Source: a virus. Taken from it: 36,861 bases of DNA. Below the pieces are notes generated by a model. It saw only the letters and a program-made list of their open reading frames with translations, was not told where the DNA came from and did not search any database. Positions 13,564 through 33,699 of this stretch are shown here, in pieces. Within the stretch, counting starts at the first letter, position 1. Each line of letters starts with the position of its first letter. Position numbers and translations under genes: made by a program. The stretch is from positions 1-36,861 of the IMG/VR virus record IMGVR_UViG_3300046167_000416, one strand, 5' to 3'.

Positions 13564-15676
13564 GCGTCGCCTCCGTGATTATCTCAGCCTGCGCCTTCAT
13601 CACTTCGCGGTTGATCGCCATGTCGGCCCGGATCTGGGCGACGTCAAGCTGCGTGCCGTACTTCGCCTTCAGCTCTTCCGCCTTGACGCGGATGTCGGCC
13701 TCGAGCTCGTCGCGCTTGCGGTCGTCTTCCATCATCATCTGCTCGCGCTTCAGCTGAAGGCTCTGCCGCCTTCTTCTGCATGTCCGCCTGTATCTGCTGG
13801 ATCTGCACCTGGATTAGCTGCTCGTTGATGTCTGGCTTGTTGTCTGGCGGTGGCGGCTGGAACTTCGCAGGATCGCTCCAGAATTGCGACGTGTCCTTGA
13901 AGCCGGCCAGTGACGTCATTTCCTTGAGCGTGTTGCTCAGCTTGGAGATGTCGGTCAGCGGGTTCTGCGGGCCCATCGTCGACATGGCTTCCTTCTGCAT
14001 CTCGCCGATCTGGCGCAGCATCATCATCCGCTCGGTGTCAGTACCGCGACCCAAAGCCACATTAACAGAGACGTCCATGTTGGCGTCCCAAACTCTCGGG
14101 TCGATTTCGATGAAGTCGTTGTTCAAGCGGATCATCCGCGCCTTATCTTGGTGCGTGGTGATGTTGTACAGGACAAGCTCGTACAAGCGTTTAACGCCTG
14201 TCTCAGCGAACACCCTAGCGATCATCTCGATGTGCTGCTGTGCGGCGCTCACAGTGGCTGCCACGGCCGTTGCAGTGCTGGACTGTAGTGCGCCGGCGTC
14301 TAAACCCATAGACGCCTTGGAGATGCCTGTGCGGGCCTCCTTGACCTCGTCCATGTAGTTCAGGACCGGGAATGCCTGCTGGCCGACAAACGGCACGGTG
14401 AGCTGTTGGATCGAGCCCGGAGCGCGCTGGCGGACGATTGAACCCATCTCTGTGTTCATGGCGTCGTCCATGTTCACCATACCCTCGACGACTGCAACGC
14501 GAGGATGATGCTCAGGCTTAGGCTGTCCAGCGAGTTGCGCATGACGACTGACTTGATGCGCTGGATGTCCATCACGGTGTCGGCGACGGACATGCCGAAA
14601 AAGTCGTGCGGCTCGGGGTCTGGGCAGAGTGTTGCGAATGGCGCCATGTCGCACGGCTCGTTGTTGAGAATGACGTTGCCATCTCCGCCGGTGCAGATCT
14701 TGCGCAGCTCGGCGATGCCGTCTCCGTCGTAGTCTACGCGAATGTAGTTTTCGACGTAGAGAACCTTGCGCATCGCTGGGTCTTGGCGCGAATTCATGTC
14801 GTTTGACAATGCCGGGTTGCGCGTGTTGCGCTCGACGTTGGTGTCCATGTCGTCGTGGGTCGATGACAGGTTGTAGACCTCGTCGTAGTCGTATCCCATA
14901 GATACAAGCTCAGAGACAGTCACGATGCGGCGGTGCGCAACGTAGTCGGCTTCCTCAACGGATTTAGCCTCGCGGGAGATCAGGAACTCCTCCGGCGGCA
15001 GAGCCTCCACCTTCACGCGTCCGTCTGGCCGGGTGTAGGTGACGCGCAGGTCGTGTGACATGGGCGGCATGATGATCTGGCCAGTCGCAGGGTCGATCTG
15101 CGGCTCGCCGACCGGCGTGCTCACGGTAATGTCAACCTCGGCGGCTGGGTCAGCCATGAGCGCAGCCAGAGCGGTGTCATCGACGCCGGTGTATTCGATT
15201 GTGTCAAACTCGGTCTTGTCTTCCCAGTAACACTTGAGGATGCCGACCTTGCGCACCAGCGCGTCCATAAACGCGCTGTGCATCTCCATGAAGCCGCGGT
15301 TGTCGCGGTTGATGATGAAGTTGGCGTACTCGGTGGCCTGCTTTGCCGCCGGCACGTCCTCCGCGTTCTGCGGGACGTATTCGACGGTGCGGTCGGACCC
15401 GTTGAAGATGCGCATCAGGGACGGCATGATCGCCTGTACGGTATCCCGCACGTCCATGCTGACCACTTGGCTGCGACCCTCTTCCTCGTCACCAAACGGC
15501 TCACCCCGGTAGTATTGCGTCGCCGTGGCGCGGATCGGGGAGACCCAGTTGTCGATGAAGTCTATGGCGTCGTCGATCTCGTTGCCGACGATGCCTTGCA
15601 GCTCCTGATCGTCCATGACGTCCGGGTTCAGTTCAGCCTCGAGCTCGGAGGCCATTTCGTTTATTTCATAGTCCAT
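13553..15676 (-). CDS. Portal protein, with two opposite single-base frame breaks
   Basis: The coding content totals about 707 residues. The start is the ATG at 15676 (MDYEINEMASELEAELNPDV) with AAGGG upstream. Segment 1 (15676 to about 14505) contains ATQYYRGEPFGDEEEGRSQV and FFGMSVADTVMDIQRIKSVV. Segment 2 (about 14504-13760) is in another frame: PRVAVVEGMVNMDDAMNTEM, VPFVGQQAFPVLNYMDEVKE, SKASMGLDAGALQSSTATAV. Segment 3 returns to the first frame: MMMEDDRKRDELEADIRVKA. One A added near 14505 (ATCATCC to ATCAATCC, giving SINPRVAVVEG) and one C removed near 13760 restore a single protein. The portal is the dodecameric DNA gate at the capsid vertex. The breaks look like sequence errors. Confidence 0.85.
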
Positions 15677-15689
15677 CTTGTGGCCCTTC

Positions 15690-15718
15690 TTGCAACTCGG
15701 TTGCGGTTGTGTTAACAT
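15690..15718 (+). promoter_or_regulatory. Candidate promoter for the plus-strand gene, with a GTTAAC site
   Basis: TTGCAA at 15690-15695 and TAACAT at 15713-15718 are separated by 17 bases, a plausible -35/-10 pair for the plus-strand gene starting at 15745. The -10 overlaps GTTAAC (15711-15716), a hexamer that recurs in intergenic DNA of this genome. The stretch also forms the leader of the portal gene on the other strand, so it could affect both. Confidence 0.4.
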
Positions 15719-15744
15719 CCGTTGTTCCACGGGAGGAAAACGTA

Positions 15745-17454: not shown

Positions 17455-17996
17455 TAGCCGAGTAGACCCTGCGGACGAGCCACTGGCCGCGGTGACGTCT
17501 CAGGCGGCAGCAAACCCTGCGGGCGCATACGCGGACGGGGTGGCGTCTCGCTGTACAGGCTCTGGCCGGAAAACTTCCTGCCGTAATCCGAAATAAACGT
17601 GCCGAACTTGTCTTTCTTGTCCAACTCCCCGCCGCTCTCGAGGAAGTCGCGCATACCCTTGCGGCCTCCGAGGTGGGCCATGCCGACAACTGCCGACATA
17701 TCCACCGGCACGCCCTTGATCTCTTGGCCGAAGAAGCGGTCCAAGCCATTCTCCATGGCGTAGTCCACGACGTCCTGCTCGTGCCAGTTCATGACGCGCT
17801 CTTGTAGCTCCGGGCTGGACAGGAAGTCTTCTCGGGTGAACTTCTCGCCCGTGTCATCCATGAAATCTTTTAGGCGCGGGTCTCCGAACTGGTACGCACC
17901 TGCAACCATGTCACCGCCGCCGGCGTCAGTCAGGATGCCGTAGTTGCCGCTGCTCTCGCTCTGCGCCATTAAGTTTCTAAAGTCACTTCCGGGCAT
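17454..17996 (-). CDS. Lytic transglycosylase-like virion muramidase
   Basis: 180 residues, MPGSDFRNLMAQSESSGNYG, then GGGDMVAGAYQFGDPRLKDF. Glu14 in 'SESSGNYG' and the 'GAYQFGDPRL' motif at about 33-42 match the catalytic Glu and the GxYQ segment of lysozyme-like transglycosylase folds. 'VGMAHLGGRKGMRDFLESGG' is the late helix typical of this group. The C-terminus carries two copies of a Pro/Arg-rich unit (PPRPRMRPQGLL and SPRPVARPQGLLG). Because it lies in the virion operon rather than the lysis cassette, it probably opens peptidoglycan locally during DNA entry. Confidence 0.78.
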   Translation of the reverse strand: MPGSDFRNLMAQSESSGNYGILTDAGGGDMVAGAYQFGDPRLKDFMDDTGEKFTREDFLSSPELQERVMNWHEQDVVDYAMENGLDRFFGQEIKGVPVDMSAVVGMAHLGGRKGMRDFLESGGELDKKDKFGTFISDYGRKFSGQSLYSETPPRPRMRPQGLLPPETSPRPVARPQGLLG

Positions 17997-18725
17997 TAGT
18001 TGCTGCCTCCCTGCGTCTTTAAGTATTCCTTGAAAATTGCCCTCATGCGAACCGGGTCATCCCTGTAATTGTCGAAGGCTGGAAGGCTCCCGACCTGCTC
18101 CATGAAGGCGTCAAATTCACCTCCGGGCATGTACCTCGGGTCGCTAGGATTGCCGGTAAACACCTCAAGCTGCATGTCTGGCTCGGGTAGGCTTGGCGAC
18201 GTGCTGTACGCCGCCTCCATGCCCATAGGAACCCCGCCGCCCGCTGTGGGCGTGGTAATTGGTGCCACGGGCTCTATGATCGGCGTCTGCTGCCTCTGGG
18301 GCCGGTATGACGACCGCAGCTCACCCTGCGGCGGCGGTGCGTCGTATCCGCCGATAATGCGCGCCAGAATGCCCATGAGCGTCGGCGTATTAGTCAGCTT
18401 GTGCATAAATGTTCCGGGCTGCGGCAGGTTCGCGTCGCGGTAGGTCTGGGCCAAAGATCCCGGGCTGGAAATCGGAGCGGAGGCGTCCGCCGCTGGTGTA
18501 GGGATCGCGGACTGGGTTGGCGGCCTGACGGAAGTCGCTCAGATCCGGACCGATAGCCGTGCCGTAGTTGGGCGCCGCTGCGTACCTCTCGGAGATGCTA
18601 GAGCGATACCTGTCGCCGGCGTCGGAGCCTTGATTACGGCTTATCGTGTCCGCGGTGCGGTCGTAGTAGTCGCGGTCCTTTTCCTTGAACCCGAACCCCA
18701 TCGCTAAGTCGTCTAAGATGCCCAT
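17996..18725 (-). CDS. Hypothetical protein heading the virion operon (one frame break)
   Basis: Two overlapping frames read as one protein of about 242 residues. It starts MGILDDLAMGFGFKEKDRDY at 18725 and breaks near 18455. Removing one T from TTT (ATCTTTGGCC) gives DFQPGILAQTYRDANLPQPG, then TFMHKLTNTPTLMGILARII and a C-terminal MRAIFKEYLKTQGGSN. The middle is Pro-rich (RPQRQQTPIIEPVAPITTPT). The second segment could start at the TTG at 18454, but no ribosome binding site precedes it, so a frame break is preferred. The family is not recognised. It is the first gene after the element at 18750-18765. Confidence 0.65.
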
Positions 18726-18749
18726 GCGCTCGCCTCGTTCTTCTCTTCC

Positions 18750-18765
18750 CGCAATAATACACCAA
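18750..18765 (-). promoter_or_regulatory. Repeated late-promoter-like element, copy 2 (virion operon)
   Basis: The minus strand reads TTGGTGTATTATTGCG with TATTAT as the -10 candidate, 25 bases upstream of the first virion-operon gene. Copy 1 is at 10324-10339. TTACAC lies 17 bases above TATTAT but is a poor -35. That upstream stretch (TTACACTGAAGGCGGG) also occurs, nearly unchanged, inside two genes (near 16675 and 27545). Confidence 0.55.
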
Positions 18766-18931
18766 ACCCGCCTTCAGTGTAACCCCGCGCACCTGGGGGA
18801 AGAACCAAGCGCACGGGGGAGCCAATAAGCTCAGCGGCTGGGTGGGAGGGTAGCCGCTAACAGGCGCAGGATAACAAAAAAGTTTGCCGGAGGCCAGTTT
18901 TTTGCATTTTAGGGGTTGTAGTCTGTAGATG

Positions 18932-18956
18932 TTAACATTAGTTTAACTGGTATAGA
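18932..18956 (+). promoter_or_regulatory. CtrA-like site and -10 of the plus-strand pocket
   Basis: TTAA (18932-18935), seven bases, then TTAAC (18943-18947) is a perfect match to the TTAA-N7-TTAAC CtrA box known from alphaproteobacteria. A -10-like TATAGA follows three bases later (18951-18956). The first half would overlap the -35 region, as in CtrA-dependent promoters. The leader that follows (ACACAAACAAAGGAACACGG) is almost identical to that at 33372-33393 on the other strand. Only the motif is seen; binding is inferred. Confidence 0.55.
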
Positions 18957-18977
18957 CACAAACAAAGGAACACGGAC

Positions 18978-19163
18978 ATGAAAATCACTAAGAAAGCAAT
19001 CCAAGCGCTGGCAACACAATCGGTCAAAGATCAATACGCTCTTGAGGTGGACAAAGTCATATATCTGGAAAATGTGATTGATGCTGGAGGGTTTGACATC
19101 AGCTTGACTGATCGCCCGAACCAATGGGATCGCTGCATCGAATGGCTTGAAAACGCTGTATAA
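18978..19163 (+). CDS. Small hypothetical protein under the CtrA-like promoter
   Basis: 61 residues, MKITKKAIQALATQSVKDQY, then ALEVDKVIYLENVIDAGGFD and ISLTDRPNQWDRCIEWLENA. The ATG follows AAAGGAACACGGAC, which is nearly the same leader as the gene at 33144-33371. The N-terminus is basic and helical, the C-terminus acidic with a Trp pair. No family is recognised. A GC hairpin follows 7 bases after the stop, so the next genes may be transcribed at a reduced level. Confidence 0.72.
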   Translation: MKITKKAIQALATQSVKDQYALEVDKVIYLENVIDAGGFDISLTDRPNQWDRCIEWLENAV

Positions 19164-19170
19164 TCAACAC

Positions 19171-19188
19171 GGGGAGCTCCGGCTCCCC
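19171..19188 (+). terminator. GC hairpin after the first small gene
   Basis: GGGGAGC TCCG GCTCCCC forms a perfect 7-bp stem with a four-base loop, 7 bases after the stop at 19163. No T-run follows (ACAACC), so it is an attenuator or RNA stabiliser rather than a clear intrinsic terminator. A hairpin in the same relative place follows the gene at 33144-33371. Confidence 0.6.
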
Positions 19189-19205
19189 ACAACCGGGAGA
19201 ATAAA

Positions 19206-19835
19206 ATGCACAACAACACACCACAAAACACGCAGGAAGCCGTCGAGCTGGGCCTGTACCTCGCAATCACCGCCAGCACAGAGGAGAAGTCGGCGGAGGC
19301 GCTTGAGCTCGCCAAGGGGCTGGCGCAGGAGCTCAACTATGCCGAGGTCCAAGAGGCCAAGCGAAACGTCGCGGCGCGGATCGAGCAAGAGCGCCAGACG
19401 CGCAGAGACTTGTCAGACGTCATCAGCACCATATCTCCGGCGGAGACGCCGTTTTCTCGCGAGGCTCGGGAGTTGAGCGTAAGTCTACAAAAGTGGGAGA
19501 CCGCAAAGGCGAAATACATGCCCAAGCCAAAGCGCCTGACGCGCGACCTCATACTCGACGCAATCGGGTGCCCAAACCTCGAAATGATGAGGGTCAAGAA
19601 CGAAAACCCGCCAAAGTCGGCGCCGGCATACATGAAAGTGGCGTGGCGTTTCGTATACCTCAAGGAGCCAGGCACAAACCTGACACTCCACTACATGGCC
19701 ACCGGCAGGATTAAAGACCAAGTCGTCGCATTTCTCGACGTCGACCACCCACGCCTCAAAGACCTCACGCTCGAGCAGTGGGTCGAGAATGGCCAGATGC
19801 TCGTCGATCAGGTCGAGCGGGAGGGGCTAAGGTAA
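19206..19835 (+). CDS. Hypothetical protein, plus-strand pocket
   Basis: 209 residues with GGGAGA before the ATG. The N-terminal 60 residues (AVELGLYLAITASTEEKSAE, ALELAKGLAQELNYAEVQEA) resemble small stand-alone phage proteins with a 'LGLYLAITA.T.E.SAEAL.LA' pattern. The rest is a distinct region (LTRDLILDAIGCPNLEMMRV, APAYMKVAWRFVYLKEPGTN, LDVDHPRLKDLTLEQWVENG). It could be a natural two-domain protein. No catalytic motif is evident. Its stop overlaps the next start (TAATG). Confidence 0.7.
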   Translation: MHNNTPQNTQEAVELGLYLAITASTEEKSAEALELAKGLAQELNYAEVQEAKRNVAARIEQERQTRRDLSDVISTISPAETPFSREARELSVSLQKWETAKAKYMPKPKRLTRDLILDAIGCPNLEMMRVKNENPPKSAPAYMKVAWRFVYLKEPGTNLTLHYMATGRIKDQVVAFLDVDHPRLKDLTLEQWVENGQMLVDQVEREGLR

Positions 19836-22521: not shown

Positions 22522-23101
22522 TCACGTCAAACGTGCTGTTCGCTGGCCGATGCACCGCGTCACCTTTGCCTCGGGAAACTGCTCCAGCGTCTTCTCGATG
22601 AACTCGCTGCTAAAGTTGTTCCCCAGCACGATTGCTGCGTCGACCATATCATACACCAACCACTCTGGATGTTCACGCCTGATGCCGACCGCGTCGTGCA
22701 GCGCGATGCACACGATGTTGCCAGAGGCGATCTCGATGCAGTATGCGTGCCGACCCACCGGCTGGTGCCCGTTAGCCTCCGCCTCCGCCTCCAGCACGTC
22801 CCACGCGCGTATCAGCTGCGTCGCAATCTGGTGCACCGCCACCACGTCATCCGCTTCGATCTTCGACCCGCAGCGCGTCATACGCCGCCTCAAAGCGTCC
22901 AGCGAGCTCCGGGCTCACGAGAGCCGGCAGAGTGTCACCCCACTTGAGCGTCTTCTCACGCGCCTTGCGATCCAGCGGAGCCAGCTGACCATCGACCTGA
23001 CGCGAGATCGGCTTGCTCTGTGTGCCAGTCTCAAACGTCCCACGGTCTTTGCGCGCCTTCGCATATCCCGCCTTTGCTTTCCCACTCACCTTCGTTGCCA
23101 T
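22522..23101 (-). CDS. Hypothetical protein upstream of terminase (frame break)
   Basis: About 192 residues once joined. The N-terminal part, MATKVSGKAKAGYAKARKDR, then DTLPALVSPELAGRFEAAYD, is basic then helical. It continues after a one-base break near 22880 as KIEADDVVAVHQIATQLIRA, WDVLEAEAEANGHQPVGRHA and TLEQFPEAKVTRCIGQRTAR. No family is recognised. The start at 23101 has GGGGGAG upstream and lies just past the structured repeat region. An adjacent GTTAAC (23128-23133) sits 27 bases above the start. Confidence 0.65.
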
Positions 23102-23133
23102 GATACTACTCCCCCTTCGCTGCCAATGTTAAC

Positions 23134-23273
23134 CACACCCAATTCAAAACGCCACCACACACCACACCACACCACCCTATACAATAGGGGGTGGTGGTGT
23201 GGAACGTGAAATGGCCGTATTCTCCACACTCTCCACACCTCCCCACACCACAAGTGTGGTAAGTGTGGAGGCA
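23134..23273. repeat. CCACAC-repeat region with two large hairpins; candidate replication origin
   Basis: A 140-base gene-free stretch. Hairpin 1: arms 23162-23180 and 23184-23202 pair at 16 of 19 positions around a three-base loop. Hairpin 2: CTCCACAC (23222-23229 and 23231-23238) faces GTGTGGAG (23263-23270), with an inner CCACAC/GTGTGG stem (23243-23248, 23254-23259). CTCCACAC units repeat at 9-10-base spacing. TTCTCCACA at 23220-23228 matches the DnaA box TTATCCACA at 8 of 9 positions. With the primase-helicase adjacent, an origin is plausible; a strong terminator is the alternative. Confidence 0.5.
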
Positions 23274-23523
23274 TTAGTGCAACAGCTCCGCACCACTGCG
23301 CACCTCCACCATCTGGTCGTCGAGGCGCACCAATGCGTGCTCCAGACACTGCATGGTTGCCACTATAATCTCCTGCACGCGCATCCGCTCCTCGACGGTG
23401 CGCGGCTGCATGAGGTCGGGTTGGAAAGTCGATGGCGCAAGCTCTGAATATGTCGGACCAGTAGATCGCCATGATGAGATCCTCGTCCTCGAGATCCATT
23501 GCCGTATTCTTCTTCGAAGTCAT
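23274..23523 (-). CDS. Small acidic protein after the primase-helicase (frame break)
   Basis: About 82 residues after joining two frames: MTSKKNTAMDLEDEDLIMAI, then YWSDIFR, and after a one-base break near 23440, ELAPSTFQPDLMQPRTVEER, VQEIIVATMQCLEHALVRLD and QMVEVRSGAELLH, ending at a TAA (23274). If the first frame is simply continued it runs into the low-complexity hairpin DNA, which supports the break. Its ATG overlaps the stop of the primase-helicase (ATGA). No function is recognised. Confidence 0.6.
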
Positions 23524-25731
23524 CCATCAATTACGCCCGCCTCCTCGCCAGTGATCCACTCACCCACGACGACCACCGGCACGTCACGCCCGGTGCGCAA
23601 GTCTTTCTCGCGCTCGATGCGCAGCACGTCGGTCTCGATCCACTTCTTCACGATTGCGTTGACCTTGGCCTTCTCGTGCTTCTTGTCGACGTCGAGCTCG
23701 AGGTGCAGCGCCACGACGTTGCCCACCCACTGCTTTGCCTGCGGGTTCTGGCGCATAAACTCGCCGCGCTGGGCCGCCTGCCCGACGTCACGCTGCACCT
23801 TCATCGCGTCCTTGGCGCTTACGCCCGTCGAATAGATCGGGCATAGAAAAGGCCTCGGCCACACCGACGTATTCTCCGTTTGGCAATTTTACGCCGACCA
23901 TGCGCCGGTACACTGCCTTCGATGCCGGCGGTGCCATGTTCGATTTGCCGTCCTCCACTTTAAAAATGCCCAAGCGCCTCGGTCTCCGACACGCCCAGCT
24001 TCATCGCGTCCTCCATGAGACACGCGGTTGATGACGCGCGCCGCTCGGGCTGCGCCGAGCAAGGCTGCCTGCGCTCCGCGTATGCTGTCGACCGTGGCGT
24101 CGTCGCCGTTGCCCTTGCGTATGTGGTGCACGAGGACGCCGCGCAGTCTGTCTCGTCACACGGCTGCGCACAGGCCCCGACGGCGGCGTTCATTGCGACG
24201 TTGTCGTTCTCGTTGATGCCGGTTCGCGCCGACCCACGGGTCGATGACACCAGCCGATCTCGTTCTGCGTGATCTTGGCCGTCAGGTAGTCCGACCAGCG
24301 CGTCGTCGACTGTGATGCCCTCGCGGTCCTGCTCTGGCGAAGATCATGTTCATGTCGCGGCCCGCATCCAGGAATAGCTTGCCCCGGATTTCGTCTGCCG
24401 TGACGTTGTAGTGCAGCATCGCCGCGGCCACGCGCCGCTGGAGCTCCTCAGACGGATCTTCCAGGTTGATGATCCACACGTTGCACGGCTCGTGCACGGG
24501 CTCACCGAGCAGCGGACGCCGGTGCAAATTGCCAGCGCCTCCACGATCTGCATCGACGTCTTGCCCACGCCCCCGGCTGACGCCAGCACGGACACGTTTG
24601 ATCGGATGTAGTGCTGGCCGTAGATCCAGCCGCCGCGCCGGTATCGCTGCCGGGTCGACGGGATCGTAGGGCGTCGGGTAGCTGCGCTCGGACTGCGCGA
24701 TCTCGGCCTGCACCTGCGCGACCGGCTTGGCCATCGCCAGAGCCTCACGCAATTTCTCGGCGCTGGTCTCACGCAGGTAGTCGTTTGCGTCCTTCACGCC
24801 CTCGACGCCCAGCATGTCGAAGCGCACGACGTGCACGTCGGTGCTGCCGTCGCCGCGGAGCACATCTGCCACCGCATCCACGTCCAGATCCGGGTCGGCG
24901 CAGATCGTCACGTCGGACGCCCGCGGCACGGGGTATGTGGACATGCCGGCCTTGCCAAACGTGCACACGACCGTCGCCTCGTCGCCGACCGCCTGATACA
25001 CGCTCAGCGCATCCTCTGGCCCCTCGGCCATGATGATGACGCCGCCCTCGTGCTCGTCGCCGATCCGCATGACGTTGCCTGCGATCACGCCGCGGCTGTA
25101 TTTGCTGATCCCGTTGTGCTCTCGCTTCTGGCCCTCGGGTGTGAGCAGCACGCTCTGCACGCCGCACACTTCTCCGCTTGGACTGAGCGCGGGAAACATG
25201 ATCGCGGGGCCGTCGTATATATTCGGGCTAAACCGCGCCGCATGCGAGGCTGTACTGGCCCTCAGACCCCGCGAGTTGAGGTAGAGCAGCGCCGGACGCA
25301 CGGCGTCGACGTTGTCACGCGAAATTGTGACGCCCCGCTCCCAGATCTCGCGCGCCTTGCGCATCTTGTCCGCGCGGCTCTCGTCGTCACGCGCCAGCAC
25401 TTCCTTGGCGGCCAGGCGCGTCATCAGGCGCTCGAACTCTGACGGCGTGTACGGCAGCGCGTCGGAGTTTTCGAGCTCCTTTCGGGCTGTCGCCGCCGCG
25501 CTTAAATCCGCTGCCAATCGTCGCCTTGATCTCGTGGTCTTGCAGGCCCATCGCCTTCGCTGCGCTGTGCAATTCGCTGATCGCTGCGTCTAAGTTTGCC
25601 GGTGCCATGTGGGCGTGACGCCCGAGGCTGAACGCGGCCTTGTTTAAAATTTCGTTGCGGCTCCCCTTGATCGCATTGGCCACGTCGGCCACTGCGCTCT
25701 CCGCGACTTTGCTAAAGTATCTCTCGCTCAT
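23520..25731 (-). CDS. Primase-helicase: TOPRIM plus RepA-like ATPase (many frame breaks)
   Basis: About 736 residues reconstructed from several frames. The start is MSERYFSKVAESAVADVANA at 25731. After a break near 25485 a TOPRIM-type primase region follows: VIIMAEGPEDALSVYQAVGD, DVTICADPDLDVDAVADVLR and KDANDYLRE. Then comes a RecA-fold ATPase: WIYGQHYIRSNVSVLASAGG with Walker A GVGKTS, VWIINLEDPSEELQRR (Walker B), LVHHIRKGNGDDATVDSIRG and AQAALLGAARAARVINRVS. The C-terminal part is PNGEYVGVAEAFSMPDLFDG, then DAMKVQRDVGQAAQRGEFMR. This is the replicative primase-helicase type common in alphaproteobacterial phages. About nine one-base breaks lie between 23850 and 25500. With no phage polymerase found, it likely loads host enzymes. 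Confidence 0.8.
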
Positions 25732-25781
25732 AGTTTCCACCCTATAGTTTGGCCGCCCGCCGAGGCAGGCGGCCATGTTGA

Positions 25782-31045: not shown

Positions 31046-31157
31046 CTAGAATATAATGCCCACCAGCGTCATCAGGCCAGCGCCAGCGACGAAGCCAAAG
31101 ACTGGCTCCAATCAGACCGGCCGCGTTTATCATGCGCTCCATTTCCTTATCTTCCAT
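31046..31157 (-). CDS. Tiny membrane protein (probable frame break)
   Basis: The ATG at 31157 overlaps the stop of the preceding gene (TAATG). As written it reads MEDKEMERMINAAGLIGASL then WLRRWRWPDDAGG, an unlikely Arg/Trp-rich tail that stops at 31023. Removing one T near 31110 (AGTCTTTGG to AGCTTTGG) gives AGLIGASFGFVAGAGLMTLV and GIIF, a clean membrane helix ending at 31046, about 36 residues. The second reading is far more protein-like. Confidence 0.5.
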
Positions 31158-31924
31158 TATTCCTCATCCTCAAACCTGTTGGAAAGCGCCTTGATCGGCT
31201 GCTTGCTGAAGACCCAACGCCATTGGCGCTTGGTGTAGCCCGGCACTTCAACGAAGTCACGCACTCGGTATATCTTGTCAGCCTCCCACATCTTCTTGAG
31301 ATAGCTTGACGTGCGCGGAACGCTATCGCCCAGAAGCTCTGCGGCCTCTGCGGCAGTCACGCGCTGGTCGTAAGGTATTAGAGAGAACAGGCGGTTCCCT
31401 TGCTCGATGCTGTGCTGCTTCATCTTCTCAGCGGCCACCAGCATTGACGGTGAGGTTGTCAGCGGCCTGCGCGGGCCAGACGGCAGCGGGTCACGTTTGC
31501 CCGCCCGATACATAGACTGCTCGTATTCCCAAACGCAGTGGCCGTATGTGATCTCGTACCGCTCATGCTTGTCTGTGACGCCCTCCAGCTTCTTCTTCAG
31601 TCGCTCTGTTGCTTCACGCTGGTCGCGCGCCTTAGTGCGTCTAACAGGGCTTGCACTTCCTCGAGCCTCTGCTTCAGGTTTGGCCGCATCGCCGTCTTCT
31701 GCTCCGCCAGCATTATGCTGTTGATCCGCTCGAGGCGCCCGATAATGATCTGAGTTTGGTCCGTATTCACGGGGCTTCCTTTCCAGTTTGATGCTTAGCT
31801 TTTTGGTGATGCGGTGGACTGTTGAGCGCGACACGCGCAGCAAGTCTGCCACGTCGGCCTGAGACATGCCCTGCTCCGCGCAGTCTATGACGTGGCGCGT
31901 GAGCGCCTCCGGGTCATACTTCAT
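31157..31924 (-). CDS. Helix-turn-helix regulator with C-terminal winged-helix-like region
   Basis: 255 residues from the ATG at 31924: MKYDPEALTRHVIDCAEQGM, then SQADVADLLRVSRSTVHRIT, a clear helix-turn-helix at about 20-42. The middle (about residues 55-110) is unusually rich in Arg, Ala, Gly, His and Gln and reads like an off-frame translation. The C-terminal 130 residues (ITYGHCVWEYEQSMYRAGKR, VTAAEAAELLGDSVPRTSSY, LKKMWEADKIYRVRDFVEVP) look like a winged helix. The gene may therefore be two genes with a third between them (see 31597-31770) and frame breaks. The start overlaps the zinc-finger gene by four bases. Confidence 0.6.
   Translation of the reverse strand: MKYDPEALTRHVIDCAEQGMSQADVADLLRVSRSTVHRITKKLSIKLERKPREYGPNSDHYRAPRADQQHNAGGAEDGDAAKPEAEARGSASPVRRTKARDQREATERLKKKLEGVTDKHERYEITYGHCVWEYEQSMYRAGKRDPLPSGPRRPLTTSPSMLVAAEKMKQHSIEQGNRLFSLIPYDQRVTAAEAAELLGDSVPRTSSYLKKMWEADKIYRVRDFVEVPGYTKRQWRWVFSKQPIKALSNRFEDEE
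31597..31770 (-). CDS. Possible small helical protein inside the regulator frame
   Basis: 57 residues from a GTG at 31770 with AGGAAG 4 bases upstream: MNTDQTQIIIGRLERINSIM, then LAEQKTAMRPNLKQRLEEVQ and ALLDALRRATSVKQQSD. It is a convincing amphipathic helix in a frame different from the longer open frame that covers it, where the same DNA encodes improbable sequence. In the third frame a TGA overlaps the GTG (GTGA), as expected for a coupled gene junction. Either the long frame is an artefact here or two frames are used. Confidence 0.45.
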   Translation of the reverse strand: MNTDQTQIIIGRLERINSIMLAEQKTAMRPNLKQRLEEVQALLDALRRATSVKQQSD

Positions 31925-32133
31925 TCGTCTTCCTCCTCTTCCTCTTCTTCCTCGGGCGGCGGGATCTCGCCCATGCCGCCGCACTCTGGACACGATACGG
32001 TCTCCATGATTATTTCACCGATGTCGCGGCCCGCGTTGTGAGGGTATGCGTACCCCTCCTCTATAGTGCCCTCACCGTGGCACTCAGGACACGCTACCAG
32101 CCTCGGTAAGATGGCTGCCCATGCTTCGCTCAT
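31921..32133 (-). CDS. Small zinc-finger protein with poly-Glu tail
   Basis: 70 residues, MSEAWAAILPRLVACPECHG, then EGTIEEGYAYPHNAGRDIGE and VSCPECGGMGEIPPPEE. Two CPEC motifs (CPECHGEG and CPECGGMG) form a DnaJ-like zinc knuckle. The C-terminus is a run of Glu ending EDE. The gene overlaps its neighbours by four bases at each end. Such proteins can bind metal or unfolded substrates; role unknown. Confidence 0.75.
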   Translation of the reverse strand: MSEAWAAILPRLVACPECHGEGTIEEGYAYPHNAGRDIGEIIMETVSCPECGGMGEIPPPEEEEEEEEDE

Positions 32134-32423: not shown

Positions 32424-32565
32424 GTGTGGTCTCCCAGTGTGTTGGTCGCGCCTTTGGGCGCATTGTTTCATCAGTTACATTAGCGGCCACGGTGCAGGCG
32501 ATCAACAGCCCGCAGAGTGACGTCCAAGCGATCAGGATCGCCCAGTCTTGCGCAGTTGGCATCAT
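32416..32565 (-). CDS. Very small membrane protein
   Basis: 49 residues, MMPTAQDWAILIAWTSLCGL, then LIACTVAANVTDETMRPKAR and PTHWETTHG. It has one membrane helix (about 7-28). The start overlaps the stop of the gene at 32562-33098 (TGATG), and its last 8 bases overlap the start of the DUF6378-like gene (ATGGCTAA). The exact fit between neighbours supports it. Function is unknown. Confidence 0.62.
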   Translation of the reverse strand: MMPTAQDWAILIAWTSLCGLLIACTVAANVTDETMRPKARPTHWETTHG

Positions 32566-33098
32566 TTCATTAGCCTTTCAACAGTTTCGCACCAGACGGT
32601 TTGTGTGGACCTTCCCTGTCCGGCGCTCCTGTATATCTTGGCGCATGAGATCTCTCCTGATGTGAACATATTGTTCAGGCAGGTGCTGGCCTTATTGTGC
32701 TTCAGGCCGGTGATCTCGGCCACTTCGCTCGCTAGAAACGGCTCGCCGTCCATTGAGGCAACAGCTTCGCGCACGAGCTCCGCCGGCGCCTTCTCTGGCT
32801 CGGCAAACGGATCCCACTCTGGAGTGATCGGAGCTTCAGCGGGTGGCATTGTTTCGAGAGCGTCTTTCAGCTTATCGCGCAGGCCAAAGTCAGAGCCTTC
32901 GATGAACGTGACGAACCAAGGCGTTTGGCCTTTGGGGTCGTGGCGGTTCTCAACGACGCCGGCGCGGTATGTTCTGCCGACCTCGAGCTTGATGGATGAC
33001 ACGACCGAGTTTGGCACATACGCCTGCTCGAAGGTGTCAGTCAAAACGGCGAATGCGTGATGGTCGCCAGCGTAAGTTGTTGTGATTTCTTTGAGCAT
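32562..33098 (-). CDS. Hypothetical protein with OB-like N-terminus and winged-helix-like C-terminus
   Basis: 178 residues, MLKEITTTYAGDHHAFAVLT, then FEQAYVPNSVVSSIKLEVGR and TPWFVTFIEGSDFGLRDKLK. The N-terminal half (FAVL ... AYVPNSVV ... LEVGRTYRAGVVEN) resembles a cold-shock or OB-type barrel. The C-terminal half (EPFLASEVAEITGLKHNKAS, TCLNNMFTSGEISCAKIYRS) looks like a winged helix. A DNA-binding or regulatory role is likely but inferred. The ATG follows AAGGAGAGC in the leader after the hairpin at 33121-33137. Confidence 0.68.
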   Translation of the reverse strand: MLKEITTTYAGDHHAFAVLTDTFEQAYVPNSVVSSIKLEVGRTYRAGVVENRHDPKGQTPWFVTFIEGSDFGLRDKLKDALETMPPAEAPITPEWDPFAEPEKAPAELVREAVASMDGEPFLASEVAEITGLKHNKASTCLNNMFTSGEISCAKIYRSAGQGRSTQTVWCETVERLMK

Positions 33099-33120: not shown

Positions 33121-33137
33121 GGGGGCGCGTGGCCCCC
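33121..33137 (-). terminator. GC hairpin after the first gene of the accessory block
   Basis: On the minus strand GGGGGC CACGC GCCCCC forms a perfect 6-bp stem with a five-base loop, 6 bases after the stop at 33144. No T-run follows (ACAAACAAAG). It matches in placement the hairpin at 19171-19188 and is probably an attenuator or stabiliser. Confidence 0.58.
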
Positions 33138-33371: not shown

Positions 33372-33416
33372 TTCCGTGTTCCTTTGTTTCTGTGTATATT
33401 GTTAACATAGGGGTAA
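33372..33416 (-). promoter_or_regulatory. Second CtrA-like promoter and duplicated leader
   Basis: On the minus strand TTAC, seven bases, TTAAC (33416-33401) differs from the CtrA box TTAA-N7-TTAAC by one base. TATACA follows two bases later (33398-33393), and the leader ACACAGAAACAAAGGAACAC reaches the ATG at 33371. The order and spacing repeat those at 18932-18977: 29 versus 30 bases from TTAAC to ATG. A conserved transcription and translation start is evident; the protein that reads it is inferred. Confidence 0.55.
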
Positions 33417-33498
33417 CTCCGCACCCTTGCAAGCACAAAATGTTCACATAAGCGAAAAAATGTTATAGGCTGCCAGAGTGACATTCATGGAGGATCAC

Positions 33499-33699
33499 AT
33501 GCTAGACGACGACACAAAGGAACTGGTGCGCAATCTCAACAACCCGCACCGCGTAACAAACATCATGGCGCTGTTTAAATTCTGCGAGCAGGCGGCCACC
33601 ATCATCCAAGACCAGTCGGCCCAGCTTCACCGCGCAGCCGCAGACGCGCTTGAGGCGCAGCCAAAGAAGGCCGCGCCTAAGAAAGCTGCTAAGAAGTAG
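33499..33699 (+). CDS. Small acidic-to-basic protein with H1-like tail
   Basis: 66 residues from the ATG at 33499, chosen because GGAGG lies 5 bases upstream; in-frame starts at 33478 and 33487 are less favourable. MLDDDTKELVRNLNNPHRVT, then NIMALFKFCEQAATIIQDQS and AQLHRAAADALEAQPKKAAP, ending KKAAKK. It has a helical body and a Lys/Ala tail typical of nucleoid-binding proteins. It is a single gene on the plus strand, convergent with the large internal protein, and its stop lies 3 bases from that gene's end. Unknown function. Confidence 0.68.
   Translation: MLDDDTKELVRNLNNPHRVTNIMALFKFCEQAATIIQDQSAQLHRAAADALEAQPKKAAPKKAAKK

Follow-up and report, generated by a model that had tools for sequence, protein, structure and literature searches.

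A CtrA-type box as a probable operator over the promoters of exchangeable small genes in an uncultured phage family

The viral DNA analyzed here, hereafter called the window, is 36,861 nucleotides long and comprises positions 1 to 36,861 of the IMG/VR record IMGVR_UViG_3300046167_000416. Genes for a portal, scaffold, major capsid protein (MCP), terminase, primase and endolysin were recognizable in it, and a search for known RNA elements and tRNAs found none. A non-coding gap (18726-18977) separates a minus-strand gene starting at 18725 from a plus-strand gene starting at 18978, with minus-strand structural genes on one side and a short group of plus-strand genes on the other. The portal, primase and other genes (13644-15730, 22522-25776 and 17996-18725) are split into overlapping frames that are single open reading frames in relatives, which suggests indel errors in the contig.

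Within the gap lies GTTAACATTAGTTTAAC, a near-perfect palindrome at the only place in the window where TTAA-N7-TTAAC occurs exactly. A preliminary description of this DNA had claimed an exact match to this CtrA binding sequence, and the match was confirmed at 18932-18947 on the plus strand (TTAACATTAGTTTAAC). Because the site has the form GTTAA-N7-TTAAC, it is also matched on the minus strand (18931-18946). The window thus contains two overlapping exact matches, one per strand, compared with a mean of 0.05 in 100 dinucleotide shuffles, none of which reached two. When one mismatch was allowed, 33401-33417 was the sole further place in the window matching on both strands. The box equals the CtrA motif of D. 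shibae, TTAAC-N5-GTTAAC (PMC7232146), save for one base in a half-site. Coordinates of the features discussed below are collected in Table 1.

Table 1 Features at the two boxed promoters of the window and their positions.
Feature	Position	Strand	Remark
-35 element TTGTAG, slot A promoter	18916..18921	+	TTG 15 nt above box in relatives; 17-bp spacing to TAGTTT
CtrA-type box GTTAACATTAGTTTAAC, proposed operator	18931..18947	both	TTAA-N7-TTAAC; kept in relatives mostly as GTTAACATTAGGTTAAC
Proposed -10 TAGTTT, within box	18939..18944	+	TA at offset 23 from TTG in relatives
TATAGA, -10 of the preliminary description, here placed at the probable transcription start	18951..18956	+	Mostly 33-35 nt from TTG in relatives possessing it; distance to box varies
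Candidate divergent promoter TTAACA-N18-TAAAAT toward structural genes, -35 formed by box half-site	18906..18935	-	Consensus scan 10/12
Slot A cassette gene, 61 aa	18978..19163	+	Replaced in most relatives
Hairpin GGGGAGC-TCCG-GCTCCCC, downstream cassette edge	19171..19188	+	Edge conserved in relatives
209-aa gene adjoining cassette	19206..19835	+	Common to near relatives
-35 element TTGCAA, slot C	33427..33432	-
Slot C box GTTACCCCTATGTTAAC	33401..33417	-	One mismatch; encloses -10 TATGTT (33404-33409)
Slot C cassette gene, 75 aa	33144..33371	-	5' leader closely matches the slot A leader
GC-rich inverted repeat GGGGGCCACGCGCCCCC, 3' of slot C cassette	33121..33137	-	Read from sequence
73-aa gene adjoining slot C	33478..33699	+	In all nine genomes compared

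The promoter above the plus-strand gene, at the place called slot A, was read as TTGTAG-N17-TAGTTT with a start near 18951-18953. The -10 is a poor one, and this plus-strand promoter escaped a consensus scan; a conserved TTG with little else is characteristic of a promoter class in S. meliloti (PMC3616915). A second promoter of the same design is present in the window on the minus strand (33401-33432, slot C), and its leader, ACAGAAACAAAGGAACACGGAAATG, is almost the slot A leader. In both slots a GC-rich inverted repeat trails the cassette gene. At slot A the stretch 19155-19215 has a predicted fold of -17.2 kcal/mol (z -2.3).

The genes beneath these promoters turn over rapidly. The mean identity of the promoter region across eight near relatives is 92%, whereas global alignments of the cassette gene give 61% on average and fall as low as 44%, roughly what unrelated DNA would score, and in one locus (L011) the cassette gene is absent altogether. 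The first open reading frames below boxed promoters comprise 149 distinct sequences in 82 sequence clusters, and some of these genes recur in more than one class of TTG-to-box spacing. The slot A gene of the window gave no PHROGs or Pfam match, and a Pfam scan of ten first open reading frames gave none at the curated cut-off; the CopG-like and SprT-like similarities that it did show were weak. Two cassette genes (L081:1441-1950, minus strand, and L412:5197-5922, plus strand) carry GDCGVRAM and YCGPAVIS motifs that resemble, by eye, cysteine-peptidase active sites; neither has a Pfam match. The preliminary description had tied the box to early or accessory genes, and the comparison of relatives bears out the accessory part insofar as the box appears to control a slot whose gene is replaced from one relative to another. 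Our guess is that the cassette genes are host-directed, perhaps acting in host takeover or counter-defence.

Relatives were collected from IMG/VR independently of the box, giving 12 loci through the 209-aa gene at 19206 and 80 through the capsid protein. Near relatives nearly always carry the box as GTTAACATTAGGTTAAC, a perfect GTTAAC-N5-GTTAAC, while the gene below it differs; in more distant ones, whose capsid protein is 78% identical, the two half-sites remain in position but enclose different spacers, for example GTTAACAAAATGTTAAC. The box with its upstream TTG was found in 23 of the 27 loci spanning slot A, and the box in 9 of 9 loci at slot C beside the 73-aa gene, although the effective numbers are a little lower, since some entries represent the same genome twice (as locus and as full contig) and three genomes (G009, G010 and G015) entered through the motif; apart from some such full genomes, the loci behind these counts were fetched by protein. 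In several relatives a third boxed place, slot B, lies ahead of the lysis-side genes. Family genomes carry from zero to three boxes at separate slots, with three each in G004 and G015. An additional box, for example TTTAACACTGTGTTAAC, precedes the portal gene, a structural gene and not a cassette, in L007, L031, G001 and G005.

Broader scans agreed once the promoter context was required. Among 248 family loci, 167 sites with at most two mismatches had TTG at a set distance together with a ribosome binding site and ATG (RBS+ATG), whereas three permuted motifs gave 0-3; some of the 248 loci had been retrieved with the motif itself, which inflates the number of perfect sites and affects the slot counts much less. 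The raw IMG/VR count of box plus TATA, more than 120 contigs against 96 for a permuted control, by itself amounts to no enrichment, whereas the TTG and RBS+ATG context was present in 55 of 126 such contigs and in 0 of 97 from the permuted control. Every IMG/VR contig with TTG, box and RBS+ATG that was examined in full has portal, terminase or replication proteins in common with the window, which assigns the TTG-box architecture to this phage family. The box was missing from nine related records, which comprised isolates and uncultured genomes, and no cultured relative among those examined carried it, including Sinorhizobium phage phiM5, whose host bears CtrA, a point against the reading favored below; a BLAST search of the promoter consensus against cultured phages returned chance matches only. 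Box-bearing IMG/VR contigs with isolate-type identifiers proved to lie outside the family, with the exception of L132, whose provenance is ambiguous. Per-position tolerance does not discriminate between a direct-repeat and an inverted-repeat nature of the box. Its persistence at the same place across relatives despite a changing spacer makes it very likely that the box is functional. The site is weightier than the single match first described would suggest. A chance match without function, for which nothing speaks beyond the general possibility (0.05 matches are expected per genome), is contradicted by the retention of the box at fixed slots although the family has diverged, and is most improbable.

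The position of the box relative to the promoter varies between relatives. Two spacings from TTG to box predominate, each forming a large class, one of 15 nt and one of 10 nt; 5, 14 or 16 nt is rare. With TTG as the -35, a 17-bp spacer would put the TA of the -10 at offset 23. Of the 48 deduplicated promoters in the 15-nt class, 45 have TA at this offset and 44 have TAnnnT, in the middle of the box spacer. In the 10-nt class TA is at offset 23 in 59 of 59, where it falls within the second half-site and the box spacer is free, so that its register alone, and not its presence, is informative. When distinct spacers were counted once, TA occupied spacer positions 3-4 in 12 of 15 in the 15-nt class versus 4 of 28 in the 10-nt class (Fisher p 4e-5). 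In promoters that have TATA, it mostly keeps a distance of 32-35 nt to TTG whichever the class, while its distance to the box ranges between 1 and 10 nt: 2-3 nt in near relatives, and 1, 5-7 or 10 nt in the other spacing class, in which it is often missing. The box thus slides by about 5 bp against TTG between relatives, and its place varies by 5-10 bp relative to TTG/TA and TATA, while the -10 TA keeps step with TTG. A fixed sigma70 pair with a box moving over it argues for an occluding operator and not for an activator site; an operator that blocks the promoter is probably the better reading, and TATAGA probably lies at the transcription start and is not a -10. In the window the proposed -10 falls inside the box, which by sequence is the arrangement of CtrA-repressed promoters, where the site covers the -10 or the start.

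GANTC is the site methylated by CcrM in alphaproteobacteria. The window contains 7 GANTC sites versus 133 expected, and eight other family genomes (G001-G005, G009, G010 and G015) contain 0-12 each, so that across the family the site is depleted about 10- to 100-fold or is absent. The GANTC ratio has a median of 0.05-0.08 in family contigs compared with 0.88 in 53 other viral contigs. Reference phages gave 0.26 (Rhizobium), 0.28 (Sulfitobacter), 0.54 (Octadecabacter) and 0.77 (Pelagibacter), with 0.95 for Venkman, a phage of the betaproteobacterial Methylophilales, and phiM5 has 0 sites versus 181 expected. GANTC depletion has been published for some pelagiphages (PMC9516812). This depletion favors a CcrM-bearing, hence alphaproteobacterial, host, and the family signature points to that class, although GANTC avoidance could instead reflect HinfI-like restriction. 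CCNGG is wholly absent from three genomes, G004, G009 and G010 (L491/L492, L495/L496 and L497/L498; 0 versus 85-126 expected), and only mildly reduced in the other family genomes, which suggests a second, clade-specific restriction pressure. Other routes to the host were set aside: aligning the MCP against GTDB contigs found five loci, mostly on metagenome-assembled contigs from unrelated phyla, and the best lie in metagenome-assembled genomes labelled Desulfuromonadales (76%) and Opitutae (72%), and these family contigs (L510, L511) are probably misbinned phage; the nearest cultured relative, phiM5 (MCP 49%, terminase 52%), is too distant. Box-bearing contigs outside the family have a median GANTC ratio of 0.90, with 7 of 51 below 0.3; in the absence of a general depletion, the box alone is no marker of alphaproteobacterial phages. 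Eight contigs outside the family (L115, L116, L126, L139, L168, L175, L183 and L200) carry GTTAACCTTTTGTTAAC near more GTTAAC half-sites or near a DnaA-like TTATCCACA box and TATA, and several of them are also low in GANTC; this is possibly another CtrA-type or an origin-like site.

The preliminary description had taken the box as a CtrA-activated element, with its first half over the -35 and TATAGA as the -10. TATAGA is indeed present just below the box, TATA stays close to the box in near relatives, a single site at -35 is usual among the promoters that CtrA activates in Caulobacter (PMC11264516), and CtrA activates phage promoters in phiCbK and Cp1R7A-A1 (PMC9437464). However, a site that activates should overlap the -35 and keep a constant spacing to the -10, and the position of the box varies. 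TATA shifts against the box or is missing in the other spacing class and is in register with TTG, the conservation of TTG and TA is left unexplained, and 5-bp shifts should break an activator's contact. The claimed geometry is accordingly unsupported, activation is doubtful, and the model is probably to be reversed. A switch in which CtrA represses the cassette promoter while activating the divergent structural promoter from the same box would put CtrA at the -35 of that promoter, its usual activating place. The required spacing fails where the box is 10 nt from TTG (13 bp versus 18), however, and another promoter-like site (18783-18754, consensus scan) lies nearer the structural gene, so this variant is less probable still.

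The strongest competitor keeps the operator and changes its ligand: the phage would control its early promoters through a repressor that it encodes itself, independently of the host cell cycle. Aca proteins repress anti-CRISPR promoters in this way, and acr-aca operons have a strong phage promoter and an inverted-repeat operator above swapped small genes, with the Aca repressor encoded in the operon. The likeness lies in the inverted-repeat operator over the promoter of swapped small genes; the difference is that no such regulator gene was recognized here and that no anti-CRISPR activity is known for them. Several boxed promoters per genome, three in each of two genomes, would form a regulon, the palindromic site is as expected for a repressor dimer, the window encodes a helix-turn-helix protein (31157-31993) and a second possible regulator (32562-33098), and one clade has a CopG-like gene directly beneath a boxed promoter. 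Against this, the helix-turn-helix gene occurs in 5 of 9 genomes and is absent from four that carry boxes, a relative of the second regulator occurs in 5 of 9 although boxes are in all, and the sole slot-adjacent gene in all nine, the 73-aa gene, has no PHROGs match. The motif, moreover, is the one that CtrA reads, and the signature of the host points to an alphaproteobacterium. No cognate regulator gene common to all nine family genomes was recognized; diverged or replaced repressors could escape such a comparison, and for this reason a phage repressor, though less likely than CtrA, is kept as the main rival.

With a probability of about one half, we favor a conserved operator within the sigma70 promoter of an exchangeable one-gene cassette, with CtrA as its most likely binder and repression as its effect. 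TTGTAG-N17-TAGTTT would be a host-type (sigma70) phage promoter driving the cassette. Phosphorylated host CtrA would bind GTTAAC-N5-KTTAAC, cover the -10 and block RNA polymerase, so that the cassette gene and its slot C counterpart would be on at low CtrA activity and off at high. The phage may in this way gate small, rapidly exchanged genes by the cell-cycle or physiological state of the host. CtrA has been described as almost universal in alphaproteobacteria (PMC9836097). The alphaproteobacterial host suggested by the preliminary description is backed indirectly, by the GANTC depletion, and CtrA as the binding protein is what we infer. Somewhat more tentatively, CtrA may serve throughout a widespread aquatic phage family as the shared repressor of several separate, modular one-gene slots with a constant operator and promoter and very rapid replacement of the genes, the changing host-directed set being expressed only at low CtrA activity.

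CtrA binds and regulates the promoters of several cultured phages (Mascolo 2022, PMC9437464), and the 68-aa gene DELTA_120 of phage vB_BsubS-Delta is repressed by it (PMC9437464). The alphaproteobacterial phages vB_BsubS-Delta, phiCbK and Cp1R7A-A1 likewise have TTAA-N7-TTAA sites in intergenic promoter regions, where these control small uncharacterized genes (PMC9437464). Their sites are many and clustered in large gaps or terminal repeats, whereas here, in an uncultured family, one site per promoter lies over the -10 at two or three slots with exchangeable genes; with one exact site, the window lacks the many CtrA sites in one gap or terminal repeat that mark LPEG phages. The Rhodobacter capsulatus phage Jorvik needs host ctrA for infection and has one putative CtrA site in a gap between oppositely facing operons; it is a membrane-containing, lysogenic, unrelated phage and is not reported to have a sliding operator or cassette (PMC10589892). 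In Caulobacter, CtrA represses ctrA P1 and hemE Ps from a site or half-site at -10, although these are host promoters and, in hemE Ps, a further site lies at -35 (PMC11264516). CtrA sites in phage promoters are therefore already known, and single operators over hypervariable one-gene cassettes appear to be new here. Compared with the precedents, the single operators at several slots, their sliding register and the exchangeable genes would be distinctive.

So far, a handful of cultured phages are known to use CtrA, and in most of them the sites are clustered. In the large uncultured family described here, a CtrA-like motif is a standing feature, placed as an operator would be and marking fast-changing small genes. 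If a phage protein binds the box, the phage would possess a regulator mimicking the CtrA site, a finding of interest in its own right. If CtrA binds it, phage sensing of the cell cycle would extend to a widespread aquatic group, and the combination of TTG, box and slot would provide a search key for host-directed small genes.
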